From assembly GCA_913043905.1 (NCBI GenBank), contig CAJWNQ010000010.1, forward strand, positions 1 to 60,622: DNA of 60,622 nucleotides. The letters run 5' to 3'. Numbering within the stretch: position 1 is the first letter of the stretch; every line of letters starts with the position of its first letter. This stretch comes from an uncultured Paracoccaceae bacterium (lineage in GTDB: Bacteria > Pseudomonadota > Alphaproteobacteria > Rhodobacterales > Rhodobacteraceae). Below, piece after piece: positions 2,260 through 35,236 of the stretch. The notes beneath the pieces are model-generated. The model saw only the letters and a list, made by a program, of their open reading frames with translations. It did not search any database and was not told the origin of the DNA. Made by a program: the position numbers and the translations under genes.

Positions 2260-2808
2260 TTAATGATCAATATTTTTCCATTTGATTGGCGTAATGTATA
2301 CCATGCTGTCATCAACGCTGACCATCACTTCGCCATCCTGAATGTTAACTTGTAGCTTCATCGAGCGATTTGCCTGTTTCCCGAGTTCATGGGTATCATT
2401 TTCTGAAAAATTTATGACCTGGAGATTATTAAATCGGGTAGTACTATTTTTAATTTTTTCCCACCATATTTCAGCGGTTTTGCCTCCATAACAATAAATA
2501 AGTACTTCTTTAGATTTGCCACAGGATTGTCGAACAATTTTTTCGCCTGGAAGTCCTAATGCCACCCACAATTCAAGCTCTCCACTCAAACTTTTTTGCC
2601 AAATATCGGGCTCATCATCCGATGAAAGGCCTTTAGAAAACTCTAATTGCTTATGGGCATTTAATGCAAAAGCTAAAATACGCACCATTAAGCGTTCATC
2701 CGTCTCTGAGGGATGTTTGGCAATGGTCAAATTATGGTTTTCGTAATAATGACGATCCATATCTGAAACGGAAAGCTGAACTTTATAAATAGTGGCTTTT
2801 TGTGCCAT
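2260..2808 (-). CDS. yaeQ: YaeQ family protein
   Basis: The frame is open further upstream, but the ATG at 2808 has AGGAA about 6 bases before it and gives a 182-residue protein starting MAQKATIYKVQLSVSDMDRH, the usual YaeQ N terminus and length. Conserved pieces include HPSETDERLMVRILAFAL and LWVALGLPGEKIVRQS. YaeQ has a PD-(D/E)XK nuclease-like fold. It was once proposed as an RfaH suppressor, but its biochemical role is unclear. It stands alone, with 272 bases of upstream DNA containing an AT-rich quasi-palindrome. Confidence 0.9.
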   Translation of the reverse strand: MAQKATIYKVQLSVSDMDRHYYENHNLTIAKHPSETDERLMVRILAFALNAHKQLEFSKGLSSDDEPDIWQKSLSGELELWVALGLPGEKIVRQSCGKSKEVLIYCYGGKTAEIWWEKIKNSTTRFNNLQVINFSENDTHELGKQANRSMKLQVNIQDGEVMVSVDDSMVYITPIKWKNIDH

Positions 2809-2944
2809 GATTTGTTCCTGAATAGTGACAATATGGATGTTTAATGTGTCTGATGACTTTGTTAAAGCAGATAAAAAATATCCTGAATTAAAATGAACCA
2901 AATAGTATTCTGGTCAGTTATCAGTTTTATAAATAAAATCCATA

Positions 2945-2974
2945 AACTAAAATAATAATAATTATCATTTAGTT
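2945..2974. promoter_or_regulatory. AT-rich quasi-palindrome upstream of yaeQ
   Basis: Arms AACTAAA and TTTAGTT flank a core of TAA/TAT repeats. A 19-base stretch (AAACTAAAATAATAATAAT) recurs upstream of tspO near 39100, and a related form occurs before the GMC oxidoreductase gene near 17290. The pattern resembles loose Fur-type boxes, but low-complexity AT sequence can match by chance. Confidence 0.3.
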
Positions 2975-3080
2975 ATATATAAATTCCTATTTACATTAAG
3001 GTTGTAAGTGCTCCACGCACCGCAAGATTTTTCTGTTTTACGGAGCCCTAATTCAGTCCACACAAGATTTTATGGTAATA

Positions 3081-5516
3081 TTAAGCACGCATTCGTTCAT
3101 AGCTTGGATCATAAGGGCTGCTTATAACCACTTGTGCAGGTTGAATTTTGCCAAGTATATCAATGGAAAGTATCGTACCGACTTCTGCAATGTCTTGCTC
3201 AATAAACGCATAGGCAAGATTCATATTCACTCGATGCCCCCAGTCACCAGATGTTACAGTACCTACAACACGGTTTTCTATCATAACAGATGCCCCTCCG
3301 TGTGCTGGAGCGCTATTGCTGTCGATATGTAGCGTGACAAGTTTAAACTTTGGGCCTTTTTTTGAACGTTCTTTTAGTGCACCTTTACCAATAAAATATT
3401 CTTTATCCATTTTTACAAATCGACTTAGCCCAGTCTCGAAGGGGTCAAACTCTGTTAGGAGTTCGGTCTTCCAATGCAAAAAACCTTTTTCAATCCGCAT
3501 AGATTCCACCGCCCGAGCACCAAATAGCTTTAGTCCATAAGCATCACCAGCGGTGCGTAAGGCTTTATAAGCTGCATAAAGCGAGGCGTTTGGTAGATGT
3601 ATTTCATAAGCTAATTCGCCCGAAAAGCTCACACCCATTACAGTTGCTGGTGCAAAACCAATAAAACACTCTCGAACTGACAACCAAGGAAATGCTGCTT
3701 GAGACCAGTCACTCCGGGAGCACGATGATAATACATCGCGCGCACGTGGCCCAGCCAAAACTAAAATAGTCTGATCATTGGTTAAGCTATTAATTTGAAC
3801 GTCTTCATGGACATCCATATGAGCACACAGCCAGTCCATATCATGAAATTCTGATGCCGCAGCAGATCCATACCAAATGCGATTGGGTCCACGATCAGAA
3901 GCAGCAATATTGGCAATTGTTGCTTCACCTTTCATCATGCCGTAATGATTTAGTAGATACCCCAATCCAACACGACCAGGCTTCTTTGTCACGTTACCAC
4001 AAAACATTCGGTCTAGAAATTTATGGGCATCGCTACCAGTGATTTCGAAACGATTAAAACCGCTGACTTCGCACAAGCCTACATTTTCTTCCACATTTTT
4101 CACCTCTCTGCCAATAATTTCAAATGTCTCATTAAAATGAAAACCAAGATTGGGGTGAAAGTTTTGTGATGGTTTAATATAATCAACACGTTCCCAACCA
4201 TTTACAACGGTAAATTCTGCACCTTCAGCTTCCAAAGTAGAGGTTAATGATGTTGTTTTTGCTCCACGCCCGATGGCACGATCTTCGTGGGGAAAATGGA
4301 ACCTAAATTCATTCTGATAATCCTCAATGGCTTTCAGCGCAGTGAGTTCAACATTTGCATGACTGGTAAATCGGCGAGGATCGATGCACCAAGTGTCATA
4401 ACATGCCTCTCCGTTTACTATTTGCTGTGCCAGCAACCAACCGTGGCCACCACCCTCACCAAGCCCAGCTCGCAAGCCAATAATGCAAAAAGCGTTTACT
4501 TTTCCAGGAATTGGCCCGACAAGTGGTGCCCCGTCTATGGTGTAAGTAATAGGGCCGTTGACAATATTCTTTATGCCAACCTCCATAAGTGCTGGCATAC
4601 GATTAAACGCTCCTTCTAAAACATCTGTAATTCTATCTAGATCATCAGGGCAGAGCGCGTTCACAAAGTGAGGATCAATTCCATCCATGCCCCAAGTCTT
4701 ACAATCTTGTTCGTAAAAACCTATGAGTAGTCCATTTTTCTCCTGGCGACAGTAGTAATCGCTTATGGGGCAACGTAGTAGGGGCATCCGATGGCCTGCT
4801 TCTATGATGCCTTGGATGTCTTCAGTTACAAAATATTGATGTTCCATTGATATTACGGGATGTTGAACATCCATCATGGCGCCAACTTCATTTACTCGAT
4901 AACCACAAGCATTTACCACAATATCACAGTCAATATCACCCTGTTCGGTATGCACAGTCCATGTGTCATCCTTGTGCTGAGTTAGTGCCGTGGCAGGCGT
5001 ATTCCGATAAATTTCGGCGCCAGCTTTACGGGCGCGCTTTGCTAGCGCCTGACAAAGTGAAGCAGGGTCAATATCGCCATCTTCACCGTCCCAAAGCCCA
5101 CCAACAAGGCCATCAGTTGAAATTAGCGGATGGCGGCGTGCACATTCATCAGGAGTAATAACCTCGAATTCAACACCCATACCTCGTGCCATTGAGGAAA
5201 AGTGCCGATAACCATCCATTTGAGCATGAGTATTGGCTAAGCGAATGCCACCATCGCCATGATTATAACTAACTGGGTAGTCTGGATCGTCACGTAGCTC
5301 TTTGTACAGATTTATAGAATATTTTTTCAAACCAACCATCGTTTGATTCATTCCAAAGTTTGTGACTTGAGCCGCTGAATGCCATGTTGTGCCAGATGTC
5401 AGTTCATTGCGTTCAATCAGAACCACATCTGTCCAGCCTTCTTGCGTAAGGTGATATAAAGTAGAACAGCCAGCAATTCCACCGCCGATGACTACAGCTT
5501 TTGTACGTGTTTTCAT
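3081..5516 (-). CDS. Dimethylglycine/sarcosine dehydrogenase-like protein (DAO + GcvT domains)
   Basis: This 811-residue protein has the two-part layout of dimethylglycine and sarcosine dehydrogenases. The N-terminal half (about 1-400) is an FAD-binding DAO domain with GGGIAG at residues 12-17 and TSGTTWHSA, whose His is the covalent flavin attachment site in characterised homologues. The C-terminal half (about 440-800) is a GcvT-like folate-binding domain, seen in GFNRFEITGSDAHKFLDR and AYEIHLPNASLYAAYKALR. Such enzymes oxidise an N-methyl group and pass the C1 unit to tetrahydrofolate as 5,10-methylene-THF. No exact substrate is shown. It is a single gene, with AAGG about 14 bases before its ATG. 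Confidence 0.85.
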   Translation of the reverse strand: MKTRTKAVVIGGGIAGCSTLYHLTQEGWTDVVLIERNELTSGTTWHSAAQVTNFGMNQTMVGLKKYSINLYKELRDDPDYPVSYNHGDGGIRLANTHAQMDGYRHFSSMARGMGVEFEVITPDECARRHPLISTDGLVGGLWDGEDGDIDPASLCQALAKRARKAGAEIYRNTPATALTQHKDDTWTVHTEQGDIDCDIVVNACGYRVNEVGAMMDVQHPVISMEHQYFVTEDIQGIIEAGHRMPLLRCPISDYYCRQEKNGLLIGFYEQDCKTWGMDGIDPHFVNALCPDDLDRITDVLEGAFNRMPALMEVGIKNIVNGPITYTIDGAPLVGPIPGKVNAFCIIGLRAGLGEGGGHGWLLAQQIVNGEACYDTWCIDPRRFTSHANVELTALKAIEDYQNEFRFHFPHEDRAIGRGAKTTSLTSTLEAEGAEFTVVNGWERVDYIKPSQNFHPNLGFHFNETFEIIGREVKNVEENVGLCEVSGFNRFEITGSDAHKFLDRMFCGNVTKKPGRVGLGYLLNHYGMMKGEATIANIAASDRGPNRIWYGSAAASEFHDMDWLCAHMDVHEDVQINSLTNDQTILVLAGPRARDVLSSCSRSDWSQAAFPWLSVRECFIGFAPATVMGVSFSGELAYEIHLPNASLYAAYKALRTAGDAYGLKLFGARAVESMRIEKGFLHWKTELLTEFDPFETGLSRFVKMDKEYFIGKGALKERSKKGPKFKLVTLHIDSNSAPAHGGASVMIENRVVGTVTSGDWGHRVNMNLAYAFIEQDIAEVGTILSIDILGKIQPAQVVISSPYDPSYERMRA

Positions 5517-17725: not shown

Positions 17726-18310
17726 CTAAATTGAATATGATGATCCGTCTATATCGCCGGTCCAACCCCAAAGCGCTAATAGCGGCTCTTCACCTGTGGT
17801 AATACAATGTGATTGGTTTGAATTGTGATGAACAAAACTTTTGGGTGGTTTGGGTTTTAATGTTTCATGATCAACCGCCCAGTAAGCGTTTCCGCTAAGA
17901 ATAAAATATAATTCTTCGGCTGCGTGCTGATGCATTGGGTAAATTGTTTCTGGCCTCTGCAATAAAAGGCCAATTCTTATGTCAGAGTGTTTAAAGAATC
18001 CAGCGGGACCAATTAATTCGGTTACACAAATTTGGTGTGAAATTTCTTTGGGCATTTTCCCAAAGCCAGCTTCTCTCCATCTTAGATGATGAATGCAGTT
18101 TGCTAAAAGATTAATTAAATTATTCGGCTTAATTTGTAATAAGTCGTTTAAGCTCGAGCAAACTGGAGCAACTGTTAGCGCGTGTTTACTTTGTACAGTT
18201 AGTGAGCCAAGTAGTGCTTTAGCAATGCTATTAGCGATTTCACTTTTGTGGTTTTTCACATTTTTTCCTAATGTATTTAAGAAATTGGTGAGGTTGTCGT
18301 GATCTGCCAT
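17726..18310 (-). CDS. dddQ: Cupin DMSP lyase (DddQ/DddL-like)
   Basis: The 194-residue protein has a cupin core of the dimethylsulfoniopropionate lyase family. In YPMHQHAAEELYFILSG the key residues are Tyr124, His127, His129, Glu133 and Tyr135. His168 lies in HHNSNQSHCITTGEEP. Spacing of Tyr124, His129, Glu133, Tyr135 and His168 matches the metal and catalytic set described for DddQ (Tyr120, His125, Glu129, Tyr131, His163) and DddK. These enzymes cleave DMSP to dimethylsulfide and acrylate. The helical N-terminal region of about 100 residues also fits DddQ/DddL length. DddQ versus DddL is not decided. It heads the minus-strand series. Confidence 0.82.
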   Translation of the reverse strand: MADHDNLTNFLNTLGKNVKNHKSEIANSIAKALLGSLTVQSKHALTVAPVCSSLNDLLQIKPNNLINLLANCIHHLRWREAGFGKMPKEISHQICVTELIGPAGFFKHSDIRIGLLLQRPETIYPMHQHAAEELYFILSGNAYWAVDHETLKPKPPKSFVHHNSNQSHCITTGEEPLLALWGWTGDIDGSSYSI

Positions 18311-24172: not shown

Positions 24173-24582
24173 TTTATTAATTTGAATATGGGCTTAAGAC
24201 GTTTTTTGAATTGTAATTTATGATACACAGAGCAAAGTAATTAATTATTATAAATATTTTTACTTTAATAAAAATTTTAGATTTTAGGTTGATTTCAATG
24301 ATATTGAGAATTTCATCTGAAAATATTTGATATTTATTATGATTTATTTATTTTTTGTAATGCTTAATCGCTCTATTTCAAATATTATTTTTATGAGTTT
24401 AAAAATTGCTTGAATAGAAATTTAAAAAGTGTGGATCATAATTCTTTTTTGTAAATATTTTCTACATATTTATATTTTTATAAGATTTAATCCCGATAAA
24501 TAATGTATATTCAATATATTTAGGATTAATTTCTACAGTAATATGGTATAAATTTGTTATTAATTTGACAAGGAAATACACA
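24173..24582. other. AT-rich intergenic region
   Basis: About 410 bases separate the PotC-like gene from the small DUF6356-like gene. The only structure I can support is the first copy of a 62-bp repeat (24505-24566) just before the small gene. No coding signal or terminator is apparent in the rest. Confidence 0.6.
24505..24566 (+). repeat. 62-bp duplicated upstream region, copy 1
   Basis: This segment aligns without gaps to 25250-25311 with 54 of 62 bases identical. It starts GTATATTCAATATATTTAGG and contains TATGGTATAAATTT. It ends 16 bases before the small gene's ATG, so it probably includes the promoter; TATAAA or TATGGT may serve as the -10 region. Confidence 0.85.
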
Positions 24583-24822
24583 ATGCAGACTCGCAAAAAA
24601 AGTAATCAAAGAAATGTTAGTATATTACAAAAATTTCTTGAGCATCCGGCAAGTGTAAATGAAACTTACTTGCAGCATGCTTGTTTTGCTTTAAGCTTTT
24701 CTGTTGCGTTATTTCTAGGTGCTTTTGCTGCATTGATCCATGCAATACTCCCGCCTCTTTTTCAAACTACAACGAGGCGAATTATTTATAAGCTTCATGA
24801 ACGAATTAATAATAGAAGTTAA
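24583..24822 (+). CDS. Small membrane-associated protein (DUF6356-like)
   Basis: The 79-residue protein matches my recollection of the DUF6356 pattern: FLEHPASVNETYLQHACFALSFSVALFLGAFAALIHAILPPLFQTTTRRIIYKLHER in pieces. It has one long hydrophobic stretch around residues 30-55 and a basic C terminus. AAGGAAA lies about seven bases before the ATG at 24583; six more residues are possible from 24565. Function is unknown. The notable context is its upstream region, nearly duplicated before the TRAP transporter operon. Confidence 0.75.
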   Translation: MQTRKKSNQRNVSILQKFLEHPASVNETYLQHACFALSFSVALFLGAFAALIHAILPPLFQTTTRRIIYKLHERINNRS

Positions 24823-25329
24823 TTATATATGCAGCCTTTTTATTTTAATTAAAGTTCCTGCTTGCGAGTTTGCAACATCTGCTAAATCGTTAAAAAAACT
24901 GATCAAAGTCCAATGAAGTTATTTCATAAAGAGCAGTTTCAATTTGCTTTATTAATAGTGATTTTTGCAGCTTTTTATTGATGGAGTTAGACATCATGAA
25001 AAAATTCATAGATATTTCATTCATTGTTAAATTAGAATGGTTTTTTACTTTGAAATAACTAAAGTAATCTATGCCTTAAAAGAGTTCCTATAGTAAGGTT
25101 GTAATTTCTATTTAGAGTAATAATTGCGAATAAAATTTTTGTTTATACTAATATAAGTTATCTATTTCCCTTTAACATGCTAATTTCATACTTATTATAG
25201 AATTATGTTTTACAATTAGGAAATAAAAGATAATATCCCAATATATATAGTATATTGAATATATTTAGGATAAATTTCTATGATACTATGGTATAAATTT
25301 ATTATTAACTTATTATAGGAGGACTAATC
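24823..25329. other. AT-rich intergenic region before the TRAP operon
   Basis: About 500 bases with no supportable gene. A 20-codon frame (ATG near 24996) has a weak GGAG upstream, but nothing else supports it. The second copy of the 62-bp repeat (25250-25311) lies at the right end, followed by the ribosome site AGGAGG for dctP. Confidence 0.6.
25250..25311 (+). repeat. 62-bp duplicated upstream region, copy 2
   Basis: Second copy of the repeat at 24505-24566 (54/62 identical, no gaps), ending 18 bases before the dctP ATG. The longest fully conserved block, TATGGTATAAATTT, is a likely promoter core. Both copies lie in the same orientation relative to their genes. Confidence 0.85.
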
Positions 25330-26340
25330 ATGAATTTTTTTCTAAAATTTTTTTCAATGGGGCTGCTTGGACTTGGCCTAACAATCTCAACTGTTGTGGC
25401 GGAAGAGTGGCGGTTTAACAATTTTTTGCCAGAAACCCGCCCAGAGTCAGCTGAGCTAGAACAATTTGTTGTCGATGTAAATCTGGCTTTGGGTGGCGAT
25501 ACTACGTTGAAAATGTATAGTGGTGGCTCTTTAGGTCTTCCCAATACGGATACGCTTAGGTTTTTGCCTAAAGGAGCCGTTGAAATGAGCCTAATGTGGG
25601 CAAATTATTTAGGCCGAGATGCACCCGCGCTAAGCTCAGTAGTTGTTCAGGGAACAATTGGATCTATTGAAGAGTTTGAAAAAGCCATTTCTACAGTTCG
25701 TGAGATATATGAAGAAGAGTTTGAAGAGTGGGGTGTTTCTTCAGTCGGATATGTTGCAATACCAATGCTATCTGTCTCAGTATTTTGCCGTGATGGACCA
25801 GTTCGTTCAATTGAGGCACTTAAGTCAAAGAAACTTCGAGTTTGGGCACGAGATCAGGTAGAAACGTTTACTGGCCTTGGTGTTGCAGCACAAATCATTC
25901 CGCAAGCGGAAATGTATGTTGCTTTGAAGTCTGGTGTGGTTGACTGCGCTCTATATCCTGCACTTTACGCACACACGGTTTCTCTGCAGGAAGTCGCTCC
26001 ATATGCTTCGTTCTTATATCCGATGGCATCTGGTCCATATGTAATAGGTGTTGCGACGGATCGCTGGGAGAAAACTGAGAACAATATTAAACAAGCTATT
26101 GTAAATGCTGCAGAAGATCTTTGGAATCGTACGAACCATTATGAAGATGACTTTGAACGCGAATTAGCCGCCAGAAAAAGCTTAGTTGAAGGTGGTGTTA
26201 CTTGGGGTGAAGACTTCTCGCAGGAGGATCGTAATCTTTTTGTTGGGTCAGTTACTGAAATTTGGAAAACACTTGCAGACGAAGCAGGAGGTAATGCACC
26301 CGCTTATCGTCAACGTGTTTTAGATGCTTTAGGCCGCTAA
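25330..26340 (+). CDS. dctP: TRAP transporter substrate-binding protein (DctP family)
   Basis: The 336-residue protein has a signal peptide (MNFFLKFFSMGLLGLGLTIS, cleavage near VVAEEW) and a DctP fold. Family features include KMYSGGSLGLPNTDTLRFLPKGAVEM and the RVWARDQVETFTGLGVAAQIIP region, whose Arg binds carboxylates in many DctP proteins. AGGAGG lies upstream of the ATG. It delivers a small, probably anionic or zwitterionic, organic compound to the DctQM pair. The ligand is not known. The following P450 suggests a compound that needs oxidation. Confidence 0.85.
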   Translation: MNFFLKFFSMGLLGLGLTISTVVAEEWRFNNFLPETRPESAELEQFVVDVNLALGGDTTLKMYSGGSLGLPNTDTLRFLPKGAVEMSLMWANYLGRDAPALSSVVVQGTIGSIEEFEKAISTVREIYEEEFEEWGVSSVGYVAIPMLSVSVFCRDGPVRSIEALKSKKLRVWARDQVETFTGLGVAAQIIPQAEMYVALKSGVVDCALYPALYAHTVSLQEVAPYASFLYPMASGPYVIGVATDRWEKTENNIKQAIVNAAEDLWNRTNHYEDDFERELAARKSLVEGGVTWGEDFSQEDRNLFVGSVTEIWKTLADEAGGNAPAYRQRVLDALGR

Positions 26341-26343
26341 GGT

Positions 26344-26886
26344 GTGATCAAAAAGTTCAATAAAATTGTTGCACAAGGACTGGAAAAGCTGGTCCTTGTG
26401 AGTGCTGGAGCTGCTATGTTGAGCATGATATCAATTGTTGGTATTATATTTACCAGTGTTTTGATGCGTAAACTTTTTAATGCACCATTGCACATAACAG
26501 AAGAAGTTGTTGGCTTGTTATTGAGTCTATCACTCTTCCTTGGTTTGCCTATGGTTACAATGAGATCAAAGCATGTCCGGGTTTCTCTTCTAGCTGATCA
26601 ATTGAATAAACAGTGGCATGTGGGAATTCAAATTATGGCTTTGTTATTTGGCATAGCTTTTTTTACATGGCTGATTATAGAAACGGTTCCTTGGTTTGAA
26701 TTTGCTTTTAACAGAAATATCAAAACTGAGACATCGCGTATTCTGTTATACCCGTGGATGGCAGTTATGCCTTTTTCACTTATTCTAACCTGTTCTGTAT
26801 TAATTGCACGATTGTTTGGCGTTATTGATCGTTTTGAATCTAATGACATTAAACCAAAATTTTCAAAAATTACTGGTAAAATCTGA
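26344..26886 (+). CDS. dctQ: TRAP transporter small permease (DctQ)
   Basis: A 180-residue protein with four evident hydrophobic segments and the DctQ core LHITEEVVGLLLSLSLFLGLPMVTMRSKHVRVSLLADQL (in pieces). The start is GTG, three bases after the dctP stop. Its TGA overlaps the ATG of dctM, giving translational coupling. It bridges the binding protein and the large membrane subunit. Confidence 0.85.
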   Translation: MIKKFNKIVAQGLEKLVLVSAGAAMLSMISIVGIIFTSVLMRKLFNAPLHITEEVVGLLLSLSLFLGLPMVTMRSKHVRVSLLADQLNKQWHVGIQIMALLFGIAFFTWLIIETVPWFEFAFNRNIKTETSRILLYPWMAVMPFSLILTCSVLIARLFGVIDRFESNDIKPKFSKITGKI

Positions 26887-28178
26887 TGTTATTATGGATT
26901 ACTCTTATCGGTGGTCTGCTAGTTGCAGCTGGCACAGGCGTAGCGCTTGGTGCGGCACTGGGCCTGACTGGGTTACTCGTACTGTATTTTTTCTCTAATG
27001 GAGCAACATCGCTTGCTATTGATGCCATTTGGAGTGTTTTTAACTCTTTTATACTTAGTGCAGTTCCAATGTTCATTTTATTAGGGGAAGTACTTTTACG
27101 AAGTGGGATTAGCGAAAAAGCATATTCAGCCTTTTCACCTCTCTTTCGTAAAGTTCCTGGCGGATTACTTCATACAAACATTGCAGTTTGTACACTATTT
27201 GGAGCTGTTAGTGGATCCAGTTTGTCGACAGCTGCTGCTGTGGGTTCTGTTGCTTACCCCGAAATGTCTAAACGGGGTTATGATAAAAGTGTAGTGGTTG
27301 GAAGTCTTGCTGGTGGTGGAACGCTTGGTCTACTTATTCCACCAAGTCTTTCATTTCTTATTTTTGGAGCATTAACAGAAACTTCTATTGGGCGTCTTTT
27401 TGCAGCGGGTATTATTCCTGGGATCATGGTTGGCAGTATGTTTATGATATATATTTTAATAAAATGTATTAGAAATCCAGATCTCGCACCGCTTGATAAG
27501 GCGCCGAGCTCTTTGTTTGAGACGATTATTGGTTTCAAGCAGATATGGCCTCTGCTTGTATTAATATTTTCAATTATTGGTAGTATAATGTTTGGTTTGG
27601 CTACTCCCACAGAAGCTGCGGGGGTCGGGGTTGTACTAGCAGTTTTTATTTCTTCTATTTGGGGTGAACTGACATTCCAGAAATTAGTTGAATCAGTTTA
27701 CCAATCTGTAATTTTGTTTTCTACGGTTGGTTTTTTAGTGCTTGGAGCTACAATTCTTGCGCAATCAGTCAGTGTCCTTGGTGTACCTCAACAAATTCTT
27801 GAGTCTGTGGCTGAAAGTGGGCTGGGTACATACACAATATTACTTATAGTTGTGCTTATCTATTTGATGCTTGGGTGTTTTTTCGATGGTTTGTCGCTTA
27901 TGATTATGACATTACCTGTAGTTTTTCCTTTGTTAACAGGTCTTGGGTTTGATCCTATCTGGATAGGTGTTTTAATAACGATCGTTATTGAAATTGGTCA
28001 AGTGACACCGCCGGTTGGACTGAATTTATCTGTATTGACCGCATTAACTAATAATGAAGTTAGTTTAGGGCGTGTTGCCGCGGCAACTGTTCCTTATTGG
28101 TTAATCCACCTCTTTGCTATTTTAATTCTTACCCTCTTTCCAGCAATAGCACTATTTTTGCCTGGGCTTCTTTTTTGA
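26886..28178 (+). CDS. dctM: TRAP transporter large permease (DctM)
   Basis: The 430-residue polytopic protein carries DctM hallmarks: AVPMFILLGEVLLRSGISEKAYSAF, TLFGAVSGSSLSTAAAVGSVAYPEM, GGTLGLLIPPSLSFLIFGALTETSIGRLFAAGIIPG and EIGQVTPPVGLNLSVL. It is the sodium-driven translocation subunit in the inner membrane. The ATG overlaps the dctQ stop. The OsmC-family gene follows 14 bases later, suggesting that the operon continues. Confidence 0.92.
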   Translation: MLLWITLIGGLLVAAGTGVALGAALGLTGLLVLYFFSNGATSLAIDAIWSVFNSFILSAVPMFILLGEVLLRSGISEKAYSAFSPLFRKVPGGLLHTNIAVCTLFGAVSGSSLSTAAAVGSVAYPEMSKRGYDKSVVVGSLAGGGTLGLLIPPSLSFLIFGALTETSIGRLFAAGIIPGIMVGSMFMIYILIKCIRNPDLAPLDKAPSSLFETIIGFKQIWPLLVLIFSIIGSIMFGLATPTEAAGVGVVLAVFISSIWGELTFQKLVESVYQSVILFSTVGFLVLGATILAQSVSVLGVPQQILESVAESGLGTYTILLIVVLIYLMLGCFFDGLSLMIMTLPVVFPLLTGLGFDPIWIGVLITIVIEIGQVTPPVGLNLSVLTALTNNEVSLGRVAAATVPYWLIHLFAILILTLFPAIALFLPGLLF

Positions 28179-28192
28179 ATAGGAATATTTAG

Positions 28193-28600
28193 ATGACAAC
28201 AGAATTAAAGCCTAAAGTCTTTGGGCCAATATTTGTTTTTTTTAATAGAAGTAATACTCTTAAATATGCCCATATTGATCCATCTAATGCAAGTGCATAC
28301 CCGCCAATTCAAGCACCTGTTGATACGTTTTTGGCTTCTCTTGGGGCCTGTATTGTAATGTCCATTAAATGGTCTACGGATCAGCGCAAAATTGCTTTAA
28401 ATCCATTTATAGTTGAGGTTGTGGGAATAAAGGCTTTCGACATACCAAACCGAATTGAGCGAATTAATATTGAAATCATTGGAAACTTAATCGACAATGA
28501 AAGCATAATACCTCGAATTATGAGGCAAGCAAAATCAATCTGCACAGTTAGCAATTCTTTAAATTGCGAAGTTAATTTTACTGCAAGAAACTTATTATGA
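28193..28600 (+). CDS. OsmC-family protein
   Basis: This 135-residue protein has the OsmC/Ohr layout, with the two redox cysteines at Cys53 (SLGACIVMSIKWSTDQRK) and Cys117 (AKSICTVSNSLNC). Typical members reduce organic hydroperoxides with thiol cofactors. It follows dctM by 14 bases and precedes the P450 gene by 43 bases, in the same direction. Beside a P450 it could remove peroxides or act on an oxidised product. It lacks the longer N-terminal strand region of classical Ohr. Confidence 0.75.
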   Translation: MTTELKPKVFGPIFVFFNRSNTLKYAHIDPSNASAYPPIQAPVDTFLASLGACIVMSIKWSTDQRKIALNPFIVEVVGIKAFDIPNRIERINIEIIGNLIDNESIIPRIMRQAKSICTVSNSLNCEVNFTARNLL

Positions 28601-28643
28601 TTTATACAAGTTATTATTTAGATCTAATAATACGGTCAAACCC

Positions 28644-29834
28644 ATGAGCAAAAAGACTTTCATAGGTTCTGATATTCCAATTGACGAAGATACCACTATG
28701 TCCATGTTGAATTCTGATCCTGCTGCAGTATACCGTAGGCTTCGTAAGAAAACACCAATTGTTCGTTTGAAAGCAATTGGTCGAATTGTTTTTACAAAAG
28801 CTGATGATGTCCGTCGAGTAAAGATGGATACTGAACATTTTGGCTCAAATGATGTAACTACACCAATGCAACGTGCATTTGGTGGTCACACATTAATGCG
28901 TAAAGATGGGTGTGAACACCTACGAGAACGTGAAGCCATGAAGAGAACCTTTGAGCCATCATGCCTATCAAGCTATTGGAAATCAGAATTTGAGTATTTA
29001 ACTGATGAATTGCTAGATGAACTTGCTCTTAATAAAACTGTAGATCTTTTAACAGCATTTGCTCAGCCTCTAAGTGCAAGATACCTTAAGATAGTCTTAG
29101 GAATTCAAGATGTAAGTGATGAGCAATTATTTAGTTGGGCTACTGCTCTAATTACTGGGGCTATGAATACAAGCCTTAATAAAGAAATATTTGATATATC
29201 TGATAAAAAAAATAAAGAAATGAATGACTGTTTTGATCAGTTGATAGCAAATAAAAATATGGATTATTCTGTTCTCGCATCCATGCTTTCTCATACTCAT
29301 CCAATTGAAGTGAGTCAGATCAGAACTAATATGAAAATTTGTATTGGTGGTGCTGTTATCGAAACAAGAGATGCATTACTTTCAACATTGTTTGGTCTGT
29401 TAACTCAACCCAAACAAATACAATATTGCATAGATCAAAATGATTGGACTGGGGCCTGTACAGAAGGTTTACGTTGGGTTGCTCCGATTCAGGCTAGCCC
29501 AAGAATTGTTAGAAAATCTTTAATTATGCGTGGCATGTTTATACCCAAAGGAGAAACAGTCATGGCCATTCAAGCATCTGCTAATTACGATGAACAAATA
29601 TGGAAAAATCCACATCTATTTGATGTTCGGCGAAAGCCTAAAGACAATCAGACCTTTGGAGATGGGTCGCATAAATGTCTTGGAGGTGATATGTATCGTA
29701 TGCTTATTGGAAAGGTAGTAATTCCAAAGTTGTTTGCTCGTTTTCCAGGATTATCGTTGAAAAATAAAGGTTTAGTTGAGTTTAGGGGCTTTGCTTTTCG
29801 TGGTCCAACATCACTCCTAGTGTCTTTGGTTTAA
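28644..29834 (+). CDS. Cytochrome P450
   Basis: A 396-residue soluble bacterial P450. The heme-ligand loop is FGDGSHKCLGG with Cys345. The K-helix ExxR is Glu274-Gly-Leu-Arg277. The I-helix segment GGAVIETRDALLS contains the Glu-Thr pair used in oxygen activation. No reductase domain or ferredoxin gene is adjacent, so electron partners must be encoded elsewhere. It lies downstream of TRAP and OsmC genes and upstream of a FolD paralogue. Hydroxylation or O-/N-demethylation of the imported compound, with release of formaldehyde, is a testable inference. Confidence 0.9.
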   Translation: MSKKTFIGSDIPIDEDTTMSMLNSDPAAVYRRLRKKTPIVRLKAIGRIVFTKADDVRRVKMDTEHFGSNDVTTPMQRAFGGHTLMRKDGCEHLREREAMKRTFEPSCLSSYWKSEFEYLTDELLDELALNKTVDLLTAFAQPLSARYLKIVLGIQDVSDEQLFSWATALITGAMNTSLNKEIFDISDKKNKEMNDCFDQLIANKNMDYSVLASMLSHTHPIEVSQIRTNMKICIGGAVIETRDALLSTLFGLLTQPKQIQYCIDQNDWTGACTEGLRWVAPIQASPRIVRKSLIMRGMFIPKGETVMAIQASANYDEQIWKNPHLFDVRRKPKDNQTFGDGSHKCLGGDMYRMLIGKVVIPKLFARFPGLSLKNKGLVEFRGFAFRGPTSLLVSLV

Positions 29835-30133
29835 AGCCTATAATATTAGGAATTGCACTATTTATTCTAAACTCATTTGAGATACTTTCTATTATGGAAA
29901 ATCCTAAGCCAAGATATACGCACATTTAAAAATATACTTTTATTTTAAGCTGGCTGTCGTTTAAGTAGAATATTTAAAGTTTGTTGTTGTCAGGTGCAGA
30001 ATTAGCAGATAGCAACTTTTTATTACATTGAGCTATGCCTGAAAAATCTACATTTATTATAATTCTGCTTATTTAAGTAATCATATTATTTCGATAACTT
30101 GGCTTTTGAACGTTGTAATAGCAAGGAACACTA
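29835..30133. other. Intergenic region between P450 and folD-like genes
   Basis: About 300 AT-rich bases with no supportable gene, terminator or repeat. The gap means that the folD-like gene may have its own promoter. AAGGAA lies a few bases before the folD-like ATG. Confidence 0.5.
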
Positions 30134-31009
30134 ATGAATAGTCCAAAAGACAATAGATTAATTGATGGTGTTGCTGTTAAAAAGCGAATTATCTTAGACG
30201 TCAAGGCTTATGCTGATCAATATCCAGATATGCCTAGACTTGTCTCTATCCTAATTGGAGATGTTCCCGAAGCTTCAGTATATGTCCGTAATCAAGCACG
30301 CGGCGCTCAGCAAGCGGGAATGCCTTTTGAGCAGGTTAGCTGGCCATCTGATATTACTCAAGATGCGTGTAAATCTAAACTGCTTGCACTTAATGATGAT
30401 CCAACTGTCCTTGGCATTATTTTACAACGGCCCGTGCCTTCTCACATTAACGTAAGGTCACTACAATCGGCTATTCATCCACTTAAAGATGTTGAGGGTA
30501 TGAGCCCTGCATCAATTGGTAATATTGTTTACTCTGACGTAGCACTCGCGCCTTGTACTGCGGCAGCAAGTGTAGCTTTGATAAAAGAGACAGGCCTTAC
30601 GATGGAGGGGCTTGAAGTTGTTATGATTGGCCATTCAGAAATTGTAGGGAAGCCAGCTGCTATGATGTTAATGGCTGAAGGTTGTACTGTAACTGTTTGC
30701 CATCACATGACCCGTTCTGTTGCTATGCACTCAAGGCGTGCAGATGTAGTTGTAGTAGCTGTTGGTAAGGCACATTTAATTGGTTCAGATATGATAAAGC
30801 CAGGTGCTGTTGTTATTGATATTGGCATAAATCAAATTGATACCCCGGATGGAACTAAGATAGTTGGGGATGTTGATACTGATGCAGTTATTGAGATTGC
30901 AGGATGGATTACCCCTGTGCCGGGTGGAGTTGGTCCAGTCACAGTGGCAATTTTAATGCGTAATGCGATGGTTGCCCATCAGCGCCAGATGTCAGCAGGA
31001 TGGTTGTAA
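30134..31009 (+). CDS. FolD-like methylene-THF dehydrogenase, divergent active site
   Basis: The 291-residue protein is a full-length FolD homologue: ILQRPVPSHI (Gln98 kept), GHSEIVGKPAAMMLM for NADP binding and the C-terminal WITPVPGGVGPVTVAIL. However, the position of E. coli Lys54, needed for cyclohydrolase activity, is Gln54 (SVYVRNQARGA). The conserved second Asp of KDVDG is Glu121 (KDVEGM), and CTP is CTA. Mutation of the human equivalent Lys56 is reported to remove cyclohydrolase activity while leaving dehydrogenase activity. This copy may therefore be a dehydrogenase-only or altered enzyme, and a normal folD may exist elsewhere. Confidence 0.85.
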   Translation: MNSPKDNRLIDGVAVKKRIILDVKAYADQYPDMPRLVSILIGDVPEASVYVRNQARGAQQAGMPFEQVSWPSDITQDACKSKLLALNDDPTVLGIILQRPVPSHINVRSLQSAIHPLKDVEGMSPASIGNIVYSDVALAPCTAAASVALIKETGLTMEGLEVVMIGHSEIVGKPAAMMLMAEGCTVTVCHHMTRSVAMHSRRADVVVVAVGKAHLIGSDMIKPGAVVIDIGINQIDTPDGTKIVGDVDTDAVIEIAGWITPVPGGVGPVTVAILMRNAMVAHQRQMSAGWL

Positions 31010-31151: not shown

Positions 31152-32369
31152 ATGTCTAATTTACTTCCAACTAGAGCAGCTGGATTGTTAGCATTGCAGG
31201 AATTTATTCCTTATATGGGTGCTCATTATGAAAATAAACGAAATTATGATTATGGACCGAATAAACATAAAGCTGTGTCCACCTTATCGTTTTATATTTG
31301 TCGTAGATTGATAACAGAAAAGGAAGTGATTTGTGCATCAGTCACGGCACATGGGCCGGAAGCTTCTAAAAAGTTTATTGAAGAGGTCATTTGGCGGGGC
31401 TACTTTAAAGGCTGGCTTGAACGGCGCCCTCAGGTTTGGGATAGTTACGTGACTGGACTGCATAATGATTTTGTTTCCTTAGAAAATAATCATTTTTTAC
31501 GACAAAAAATTGAACGTGCTGAATCTGCTCAAACTGGATTAGTTTACTTTAATGAATGGGCCCAAGAGTTATTAGATACTGGCTATCTTCATAATCATGC
31601 AAGAATGTGGTTTGCCTCAATTTGGATTTTTACACTCGGTTTGCCATGGCGATTGGGGGCAGATTTTTTCTACCGGCATTTACTCGATGGCGATGCAGCA
31701 TCTAATACACTTAGTTGGCGTTGGGTTGCAGGACTTCATACCCGTGGTAAACCCTATATTGCTCGTGCAGAAAACATCTTTATGTTTACCAATGGTCGCT
31801 TTAATCCACTTGATGGTGAATTAGTAAATGTAAGTCATGGTTTAGAACGGACTGAGCCAGAGGGATTACCAGCATTATTGGACATACGCGATGTTCAAAA
31901 AACAGCGTCTGGTATTCCGACTGCAGTTTTGATTACTGATGAAGATTGCCAGATTGAAGATTTTGATATTTCTAGATTTGATATAAAGAGTACGGCGATA
32001 CTTTCTTCTAGTCATCTGCGTTCTTCGAAACCTATTTCCAACTCTGTTCTCTCTTTTGAAAATGGAGCACTAATTGATACTGCAATGCGTTTAAATAAAA
32101 ATCCAATACATTTAAAAGCAAATCATCCTAAAATTCTTGCAAATTGGGCACAAGAAGTAGGGGCTAAACAAATTTTTACACCTTTTGTTACATGTGGCCC
32201 GCTTCGGGATTGGTTAAAACAAACAGAACCATTTCTCAAAGATCTAAATATTAAGTTGTGTGAACAGCGCAGAGAATGGGATGATGCGATCTGGCCTTAT
32301 GCTACAGCTGGATTCTTTAAAGTAAAAAAACAAATTCCTATTATTTTGGAGAAAGCATTAATGCTATGA
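31152..32369 (+). CDS. Photolyase-family protein with rearranged domains
   Basis: The 405-residue protein starts directly with the photolyase FAD-binding helical domain (about 1-235): RNYDYGPNKHKAVSTLSFYI, VIWRGYFKGWLERRP, LLDTGYLHNHARMWFASIW and SNTLSWRWVAGLHTRGKPYIAR. The usual N-terminal antenna domain is missing. A C-terminal alpha/beta region (about 245-400) with strands such as TAVLITDEDCQ and KQIFTPFVTCGPLRDWL may be its relocated counterpart. It presumably repairs UV photoproducts or acts as a photosensor. Its stop overlaps the start of the next flavoprotein gene, and a similar arrangement is, as I recall, seen in Rhodobacter-type genomes. Confidence 0.82.
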   Translation: MSNLLPTRAAGLLALQEFIPYMGAHYENKRNYDYGPNKHKAVSTLSFYICRRLITEKEVICASVTAHGPEASKKFIEEVIWRGYFKGWLERRPQVWDSYVTGLHNDFVSLENNHFLRQKIERAESAQTGLVYFNEWAQELLDTGYLHNHARMWFASIWIFTLGLPWRLGADFFYRHLLDGDAASNTLSWRWVAGLHTRGKPYIARAENIFMFTNGRFNPLDGELVNVSHGLERTEPEGLPALLDIRDVQKTASGIPTAVLITDEDCQIEDFDISRFDIKSTAILSSSHLRSSKPISNSVLSFENGALIDTAMRLNKNPIHLKANHPKILANWAQEVGAKQIFTPFVTCGPLRDWLKQTEPFLKDLNIKLCEQRREWDDAIWPYATAGFFKVKKQIPIILEKALML

Positions 32370-33511: not shown

Positions 33512-35236
33512 ATGTCAGTAATGACTACAGATATACCAACAAAAGCTATGCTGTTTGTGCAAAATGATGCCAAGGGCCAAGTTCTTACTTGCGCAGAGGG
33601 TTTGAGCTTTTGGGGTGGCGTTGACCCAGATACTGGAACAATCATTGATGTACATCACCCTAATCATGGTGAAAAACTTACTAGTAAGATTGTTTTAATG
33701 CCTACGTCCAGAGGTTCTTGCAGTGGCAGTGGCGTTTTACTGCAGTTGGCCCGTAACGGGTTGGCTCCAGCAGCACTTATTTTTCGAGAAGAAGAGGATA
33801 TTTTGACGCTTGGTGCGATTATTGCATCTAAATTGTTTGAAAAACCTGTAGCAATTTTGCGCCTTCCTGCATCCACCTATGACGCTTTGTCTAAAGCAAA
33901 AGTAGCAGAGATTAATAATGATAATCTGTCTTTTCTGGATCAGTCTATTTTGCTTTTAAAGCCAAATACTCAAAGCCTTCAACTTGTTGAATCTGATCTA
34001 AATATAATTAAAGGTCATGACGGGCCGGCTCGTAAAATTGCTATGGAAGTCATCTGTCTTATGGCATCTGTACAAGGTGCAACTGAGTTAATTGATGTAT
34101 CCCGTGGTCATATTGATGGTTGCATTTTAGCTCATAATGCCAACTTAGATTTTGCTGAAAAGATGCATGATATGGGAGCAAAAACCTGTATTCCAACCAC
34201 GATCAATGCAATTTCTGTGGATAGAAAAAACTTTCAGTCTCAAGGGTTTACACCTGATTTTGGCATGAAAGCTAGTCGACTTGCCGATGCTTATGTGAAT
34301 ATGGGCGCACGTCCAACTTTTACTTGTGCACCATATTTGCTTGATGACATTCCTATTGAAAACGAAGCAATTGGATGGTCAGAATCTAATGCAGTTATTT
34401 TTGCAAACTCGGTACTTGGTGCGCGTACTCAAAAACACCCAGATTATTTCGATCTGTTTATTGCTATGACGGGACGAGCACCAAATACTGGTGTGTATTT
34501 AGCTGAAAATCGTGTGCCTACCTGTGAACTACACATAGAAATTCCTAAAGATTTTGATGATGCTTTTTGGCCAATGTTGGGTTGGTTGGCGGGAGCTAAG
34601 TCTCCAAACGGTATTCCAGTATTATGTGGTCTTGAAGCACTTTCTCCAACAATAGATGACCTTAAGTCCCTCTGCGCAGCTTTTGGAACTACTTCAGCCG
34701 CGCCATTGATACATGTGCGTGGCCATACACCAGAAGGACATCTGCCGATATCTTCTGATGCGAAACATCTTAATATTTCAATAACTGATTTGGTTGATTT
34801 GTGGCAGGAATTTAATGATGGGGAAAACAAAATTGATCTTGTGGCAATAGGTAGTCCGCATGCTTCAATCATGGAATGCAGAAAATTCGCTGATTTTTTT
34901 AATGATCAACAGTGTTTTGCTTTAACAAAGACTATTGTAACGGTTGGTCGCCAAACTCTTTCACAAATGAAAGCTGAAGGTATTTTTGACCGACTTGAAG
35001 GTGCAGGCATAGAAGTTATTCCTGACATCTGCTGGTGTTCAATTACTGAGCCTGTATTTCCAGTTGACACTTTGGTTTTGATGACAAATTCAGGGAAATA
35101 TGCACATTATGGAAAGGGCCTTACAGGCCGAGATGTGCGATTTGGGAGTTTGAAAGATTGTGCACGAGCCTCTTTAAGTGGCCAAGCGCCAGCAAGTCTT
35201 CCTGAATGGCTTTTATTAAATAAACACGATATTTAA
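33512..35236 (+). CDS. Aconitase X, single-chain (AcnX; hydroxyproline dehydratase-like)
   Basis: The 574-residue protein fuses an AcnX swivel domain (about 10-135; MPTSRGSCSGSGVLLQLARNG) to the catalytic domain (about 150-570; HDGPARKIAMEVICLMASVQGATELIDVSRGHIDGC). Fused AcnX proteins studied in bacteria include cis-3-hydroxy-L-proline dehydratases, which form delta1-pyrroline-2-carboxylate and use an iron-sulfur centre. The start at 33512 has no good ribosome site; the ATG at 33521 is possible. The DadA-like gene about 1.3 kb downstream is compatible with imino-acid metabolism. The exact substrate is not proven. Confidence 0.82.
   Translation: MSVMTTDIPTKAMLFVQNDAKGQVLTCAEGLSFWGGVDPDTGTIIDVHHPNHGEKLTSKIVLMPTSRGSCSGSGVLLQLARNGLAPAALIFREEEDILTLGAIIASKLFEKPVAILRLPASTYDALSKAKVAEINNDNLSFLDQSILLLKPNTQSLQLVESDLNIIKGHDGPARKIAMEVICLMASVQGATELIDVSRGHIDGCILAHNANLDFAEKMHDMGAKTCIPTTINAISVDRKNFQSQGFTPDFGMKASRLADAYVNMGARPTFTCAPYLLDDIPIENEAIGWSESNAVIFANSVLGARTQKHPDYFDLFIAMTGRAPNTGVYLAENRVPTCELHIEIPKDFDDAFWPMLGWLAGAKSPNGIPVLCGLEALSPTIDDLKSLCAAFGTTSAAPLIHVRGHTPEGHLPISSDAKHLNISITDLVDLWQEFNDGENKIDLVAIGSPHASIMECRKFADFFNDQQCFALTKTIVTVGRQTLSQMKAEGIFDRLEGAGIEVIPDICWCSITEPVFPVDTLVLMTNSGKYAHYGKGLTGRDVRFGSLKDCARASLSGQAPASLPEWLLLNKHDI

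Follow-up and report, generated by a model that had tools for sequence, protein, structure and literature searches.

A conserved TRAP transporter-OsmC-cytochrome P450 gene unit in an uncultured Paracoccaceae bacterium and its neighbouring FolD paralogue

The window analyzed in this study is a stretch of 60,622 bp, one contig (CAJWNQ010000010.1) of the genome of an uncultured Paracoccaceae bacterium (GCA_913043905.1, here G000; 2.0 Mb, 92.65% complete), whose near relatives are an Amylibacter metagenome-assembled genome and other Rhodobacteraceae. Between positions 25,330 and 31,009 it encodes a tripartite ATP-independent periplasmic (TRAP) transporter (dctP, dctQ, dctM), an OsmC-family protein, a cytochrome P450 and a paralogue of FolD, named FolD2 here. 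An initial annotation had combined these genes into a single candidate oxidative demethylation system. We found that the association of importer, OsmC and P450 is supported and that demethylation is plausible, while a link to FolD is refuted as a conserved trait. The explanation we favour, in which we place about even confidence, is that two independent units happen to adjoin each other: a TRAP-OsmC-P450 demethylation route and a separate FolD2 dehydrogenase.

All genes named in the initial annotation are present as open reading frames with products above the curated Pfam cut-offs, and their order (dctP-dctQ-dctM-osmC-P450, then FolD) was borne out in the window. The gene dctP (25330..26340; PF03480, NF037995 above cut-off) encodes the solute-binding protein, dctQ (26344..26886; PF04290) the small permease and dctM (26886..28178; PF06808 and TIGR00786 above cut-off) the large permease. 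They are followed by osmC (28193..28600; PF02566, 45.3 bits), the P450 gene (28644..29834; PF00067, 53.5 bits) and the gene for FolD2 (30134..31009; PF00763 and PF02882), all on the forward strand. The spacing from dctP through the P450 gene is tight (3, −1, 14, and 43 bp); the gap between the P450 and FolD2 genes measures 299 bp. The P450 is the single one detected in the genome.

The five-gene unit is conserved. A scan with a P450 alignment against one genome per species (84,980 species) yielded 22 loci, and 20 of them contain dctP, dctQ, dctM, osmC and the P450 gene in identical order and on the same strand, with the three TRAP components always together. The remaining two loci (L120 and L121) represent one copy of the unit split across two contig ends. 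DctP is visible only in part in L107, and the P450 of L118 is cut at the contig end. We should note that L104 and L116 are near-copies and that some loci closely resemble each other, so that 22 is no count of independent events. Genera represented among the loci are Amylibacter, Neptunicoccus, Octadecabacter, Tateyamaria, Sulfitobacter, Pseudorhodobacter, Boseongicola, and Maritalea. A complete unit (dctP, small permease, large permease, OsmC, P450) is also found on an annotated plasmid of Ruegeria conchae, where a class-V pyridoxal phosphate (PLP) enzyme follows. Among 394 genomes of the family, 14 encode a related DctP (E-value 1e-60 or better), namely the window genome and 13 others. Three of these 13 have the full unit: G224 (P450 90% and DctP 95% identical to the window proteins), G312 and G414; we take scan loci L100 and L106 to be those of G224 and G312, respectively. 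In eight genomes with a DctP of 50-64% identity, neither OsmC nor P450 was seen. The check proposed with the initial annotation, conservation of the gene order, thus came out in favour of the unit (20 of 22 loci, G414 and the R. conchae plasmid). No paper combining OsmC, a TRAP transporter, a cytochrome P450 and an operon was found in open-access full text.

FolD2 does not share this conservation. It lies behind the P450, on the same strand, only in the window and in its close relative G002 (locus L101); of the 20 complete loci from the scan, 19 showed no FolD2 there, two of them (L103, L118) with contig ends less than 300 bp past the P450. In genome G224 (97% complete), a rhodanese gene follows the unit (as read in L100), and the only FolD in the assembly is an ordinary one, 37% identical to FolD2. 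Among 148 genomes, the unit is present in six, FolD2 in 16 and both in two, the window genome and G002 (hypergeometric P = 0.13). Besides the window genome, 13 genomes encode a related DctP; a search of 12 of them gave no FolD2, and the thirteenth, G088, encodes FolD2 together with a P450-free importer. Conversely, 32 FolD2 loci from 31 other genomes (sets of 14 and 18) contain no related P450 at an E-value of 1e-15 in the stretch read. In eight of the 32, FolD2 lies immediately beside fhs and an ordinary folD, and in a further locus a fragment of folD lies at the contig edge; in the window genome, the ordinary folD adjoins fhs elsewhere. The co-conservation on which the inclusion of FolD in the demethylation system depended is thus missing, and FolD2 is in all likelihood a member of another gene family with no relation to the unit it adjoins.

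The description of this FolD as altered was correct. FolD2 proteins of other genomes are 54-97% identical to the window protein, vs. at most 43.5% for the ordinary FolDs compared. They were detected in 16 of the 148 relatives; across 385 genomes of the class, 21 have one at an E-value of 1e-80. Most bacteria carry only one FolD, according to one source (PMC11064299). The key residues of human FolD, as given in another, are Tyr52, Lys56, Gln100, Leu101, Asp125, Gly273, and Gly276, and Lys56 is described there as an aid to the dehydrogenase step that may also transfer a proton in the cyclohydrolase step (PMC3368264). We compared residues across 48 loci by tblastn, with 34 FolD2 and 14 ordinary copies. 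Lys56, the lysine of the YxxxK motif, is replaced by Gln, Leu101 by Arg and Asp125 by Glu in all 34 FolD2 sequences, whereas Lys and Asp are kept in all 14 ordinary copies. The Arg of the G(R)S motif is His in 34 of 34. FolD2 keeps the Tyr, the Gln, three checked Gly sites and both Pfam domains. From these residues, FolD2 may be a dehydrogenase only, act on a different substrate or have lost function to a greater extent. The monofunctional enzyme of yeast offers a parallel. Among the open-access papers listed by full-text searches, no title named the FolD2 family.

Two further observations concern the surroundings of FolD2. In three relatives (L084, L085, and L086), FolD2 (87%) lies near homologues of genes found at 40-44 kb in the window, which suggests local rearrangement. 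In L090 (4784-7153, scanned) and L088 (4598-6979, 80% identical), it adjoins a protein that fuses DUF1989 to GcvT domains.

Among solved structures, the P450 is nearest to CYP1232A24, GcoA and SyoA, both in sequence and in predicted fold. The best sequence matches in the PDB are 6g71 (188.3 bits), 9ia1 (142.5 bits, without a name in the match table), the GcoA entries (134.9-138.4 bits), and SyoA 8u09 (134.1 bits). A predicted model (mean pLDDT 82.9) compared with Foldseek matched CYP1232A24 first (TM 0.90), then GcoA (0.86-0.87) and SyoA (0.84-0.87). The nearest plasmid-borne P450s are those of R. conchae (52.6% identity) and of an Agrobacterium tumour-inducing (Ti) plasmid (44.8%). A 41-row tree places the 20 P450s of the unit in one group and 14 P450s of the 41-45% identity class, together with the Ti-plasmid enzyme, in another; GcoA is on a long branch, and row L031, a wrong-strand translation (end branch 10) outside both groups, is to be disregarded. 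The heme-ligand cysteine (C345) and the ExxR residues (E274, R277) are invariant in 19 sequences.

Counted along the alignment with the F169A/T296S mutant, Phe75 and Phe395 of GcoA correspond to F79 and F385 in the window P450, and Phe169 and Thr296 to Ala173 and Ser285. Two of the three Phe residues that surround the aryl ring in GcoA are thus conserved in the unit P450, and the third is Ala. The F169A mutant of GcoA gains activity on syringol, according to PMC9219061, and the PDB includes a p-vanillin complex of the F169A/T296S double mutant, which the fold search returned. An Arg-Lys-Asp stretch (residues 86-88), identical in 19 of 19 sequences and in CYP1232A24, is not found in GcoA; it could serve as a carboxylate-binding site. 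One I-helix site holds Thr or Ser in 18 of 20 unit P450s (Met in two), vs. Pro in all 14 sister P450s. Because the nearest solved relatives of the P450 are aryl-O-demethylases, a formaldehyde-releasing oxidative demethylation is a fair guess, and O-demethylation the best single one. The kinship by sequence and fold stands, and the demethylation suggested in the initial annotation is plausible.

Upstream of the unit lies the gene of a small DUF6356 protein of 79 aa (24583..24822, forward strand; PF19883, 85.8 bits, scanned from 24565 with the ATG at 24583), separated from dctP by 507 bp. A duplicated element precedes both genes, at 24479..24566 and at 25224..25311 (forward strand), with 72 of 88 bases the same; the copies stop 16 and 18 bp short of the respective start codons. 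With up to three mismatches allowed, the window contains two copies of its 22-base core and 100 shuffles contain none; a search of the whole genome added a single match, with three mismatches, and there is no third good copy. Genome G002 keeps the element before both genes, and L100/G224 keeps the copy before dctP. The element is not repeated in the gap between the P450 and FolD2 genes (local score of 19 vs. 96 for the pair). The ‘twin promoter’ described earlier is therefore a real duplication, yet its promoter nature found no backing, since sigma-70-like matches in the region are at chance level (29 vs. 24.1, standard deviation 4.7). Terminator-like matches exceed chance (11 vs. 3.7, standard deviation 2.0), yet all of them lie inside genes. 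From the common upstream element, DUF6356 and the dctP unit may be under the same control, but DUF6356 was seen next to the unit in no locus other than the window and G002/L101; several others, including G224, have too little upstream DNA for a judgement.

We propose the following course for the first unit. The TRAP system would import a small carboxylated compound, which the P450 would oxidize while drawing electrons from a ferredoxin system whose genes lie elsewhere. The reaction would most likely be O-demethylation, in which an ether loses a methyl group and formaldehyde is released. The five genes include no redox partner gene; a standalone [2Fe-2S] ferredoxin-like protein of 110 residues is encoded elsewhere in the genome. 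OsmC, by family a two-cysteine thiol peroxidase, has both conserved cysteines in the 10 of 11 aligned sequences that were read correctly (the eleventh, G039, is in the wrong frame), and it may clear peroxide from P450 uncoupling or act on a peroxidized product. The formaldehyde could enter the glutathione route, a possible means of disposal, as an S-formylglutathione hydrolase is present in the window genome (405 bits, cut-off 281.7). In the second unit, FolD2 would probably be a folate dehydrogenase that lacks normal cyclohydrolase activity and serves the fhs-folD one-carbon (C1) pathway.

Several observations weigh against this reading. Kinship at 25-45% identity does not settle the reaction of a P450. 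The nearest solved relatives of DctP score at most 50 bits, and inferring the ligand from them was dropped as too distant; the predicted DctP model was not used (mean pLDDT 38.1). The intradiol ring-cleaving dioxygenase PF00775 is present in five of nine unit-bearing genomes and was not found in four, namely G000 (92.65% complete), G002, G414, and G312 (extradiol enzymes were not searched). Because of these four genomes, growth from vanillate to protocatechuate is unlikely as a general role of the unit, and vanillate-type growth was rejected in that capacity. In G039 and G343, dctPQM is accompanied by a divergent osmC, and the stretch read contains no P450; OsmC is therefore tied to this importer more closely than the P450 is. 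A SufS-like PLP enzyme encoded at eight of the 22 loci fits no simple demethylation. As for FolD2, loss of Lys56 may cost both activities, since this residue is said to aid the dehydrogenase step too in the source cited above. Finally, no terminator-like site is listed in the 299-bp gap, and read-through into FolD2 could still take place in the window genome.

Other explanations were considered. One is that the P450 hydroxylates its substrate or oxidizes it in some other way, with no methyl group removed; the imported acid might, for instance, contain sulfur or resemble an amino acid, and the PLP enzyme and OsmC would handle the product. The SufS-like enzyme and an Lrp/AsnC regulator occur at the eight loci in two arrangements, whose enzymes are about 53% identical; the PLP enzyme is also found in G414, and R. 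conchae has a class-V PLP gene. The family of OsmC as a thiol enzyme, the four genomes without detected PF00775 and the Thr/Ser vs. Pro difference in the I helix agree with this as well. Since the nearest named solved relatives of the P450 are O-demethylases, however, and no PLP gene was seen close to the remaining loci (some with short flanks), we regard this explanation as less likely. A different proposal makes the importer the defining part, with an amide-like acid as ligand and the P450 as an optional, detoxifying addition. It draws on G039 and G343 and on the related importers (DctP 50-64% identical): at five of their eight loci, which lack OsmC and P450, an M24 peptidase-like gene lies nearby that falls under the NCBIfam cut-offs for DddP and DoeA. 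No M24 relative was seen in the window or in any fetched stretch with OsmC or P450, and the P450 is present in three of the five other family-sample genomes with a DctP at least 74% identical, which makes this proposal quite improbable.

The single pathway, in which TRAP uptake, P450 demethylation and OsmC protection lead to C1 oxidation by the adjoining FolD2, is the least credible. The genes do adjoin on one strand in the window and G002, the P450 branch includes O-demethylases and the gap shows no terminator-like site; against this stand the loci and genomes with one unit and not the other (G224 above all), the placement of FolD2 with fhs and folD in eight of 32 loci and a gap that lacks the common element. 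As a conserved system it is already refuted, and we consider it very improbable. It is also conceivable, if unlikely, that chance neighbours are involved, each with a novelty of its own: an undescribed marine TRAP-OsmC-P450 route that takes a methyl group off an imported non-lignin acid, and a FolD-like family with replaced catalytic lysine and pterin-binding aspartate that catalyzes a new or one-way folate reaction. The methyl group would then be used for C1 alone, as no PF00775 ring-cleaving enzyme was found in the window genome.

On the preferred reading of two independent units, the five genes are a testable set for a marine substrate, since DctP, the P450 and the comparison with the GcoA pocket can be assayed together. 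The FolD2 family represents a natural experiment on which residues are replaceable in a central folate enzyme. Separating FolD2 from the P450 unit also keeps a false pathway out of annotations.

Other genes were recorded near the unit and its relatives. The SufS-like PLP enzyme and Lrp/AsnC regulator are located upstream of the unit in some of the eight loci and downstream in others (2422-3867 and 3906-4418 in L104; 9268-10734 and 10737-11237 in L119). The five M24 peptidase-like genes lie in L153, L155, L156, L159, and L160; their identification as DddP or DoeA was rejected, as none of the five proteins reached any NCBIfam cut-off. Within the window, a cupin above the Pfam cut-off for dimethylsulfoniopropionate lyase (PF16867, 93.7 bits) is encoded about 7 kb upstream of the importer (17726-18310, reverse strand). 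Behind FolD2 follow a 405-residue protein with a photolyase-type FAD-binding domain as its sole Pfam match (31152-32369, forward strand) and an amine-oxidase-like gene, both kept in G002, and then a single-chain aconitase X with a swivel domain (33512-35236, forward strand), a family that includes hydroxyproline dehydratases. A gene at 38.6 kb, with a homologue near dctP in G007, was considered as a regulator and rejected; it encodes a TspO protein.

The unit can be compared with several known systems. The Ti-plasmid P450 of Agrobacterium (WP_040132288.1), which we take to be VirH2, an O-demethylase of methoxylated phenolics, although the record itself gives no such name, resembles the unit P450 (45% identity over 386 residues) and agrees at 10 of 11 compared sites. 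It differs from the window enzyme in being preceded by a second P450 (within the 1.6 kb read) and in having Pro where the window has Thr in the I helix. GcoA and SyoA, the guaiacol and syringol O-demethylases, share the fold (TM 0.84-0.87), a C-terminal GFxFRGP-like motif and the equivalents of Phe75 and Phe395, but are only 25-28% identical, the equivalents of Phe169 and Thr296 are Ala and Ser in the window P450, and the unit has no reductase gene. CYP1232A24 of Arthrobacter (6g71) is the best match in sequence and fold and has the Arg-Lys-Asp stretch in common, yet it is 30% identical and differs at four of 11 compared sites. Marine bacterial P450s also demethylate 6-O-methyl-galactose during its catabolism; likened by description only, they share the removal of a methyl ether in a marine setting, but are encoded in polysaccharide loci instead of beside TRAP and OsmC genes. 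With the canonical bifunctional FolD, FolD2 shares both Pfam domains, the Tyr, the Gln and three Gly sites, and it departs from it by Gln for Lys56, Arg for Leu101, Glu for Asp125 and His for the Arg of the G(R)S motif.

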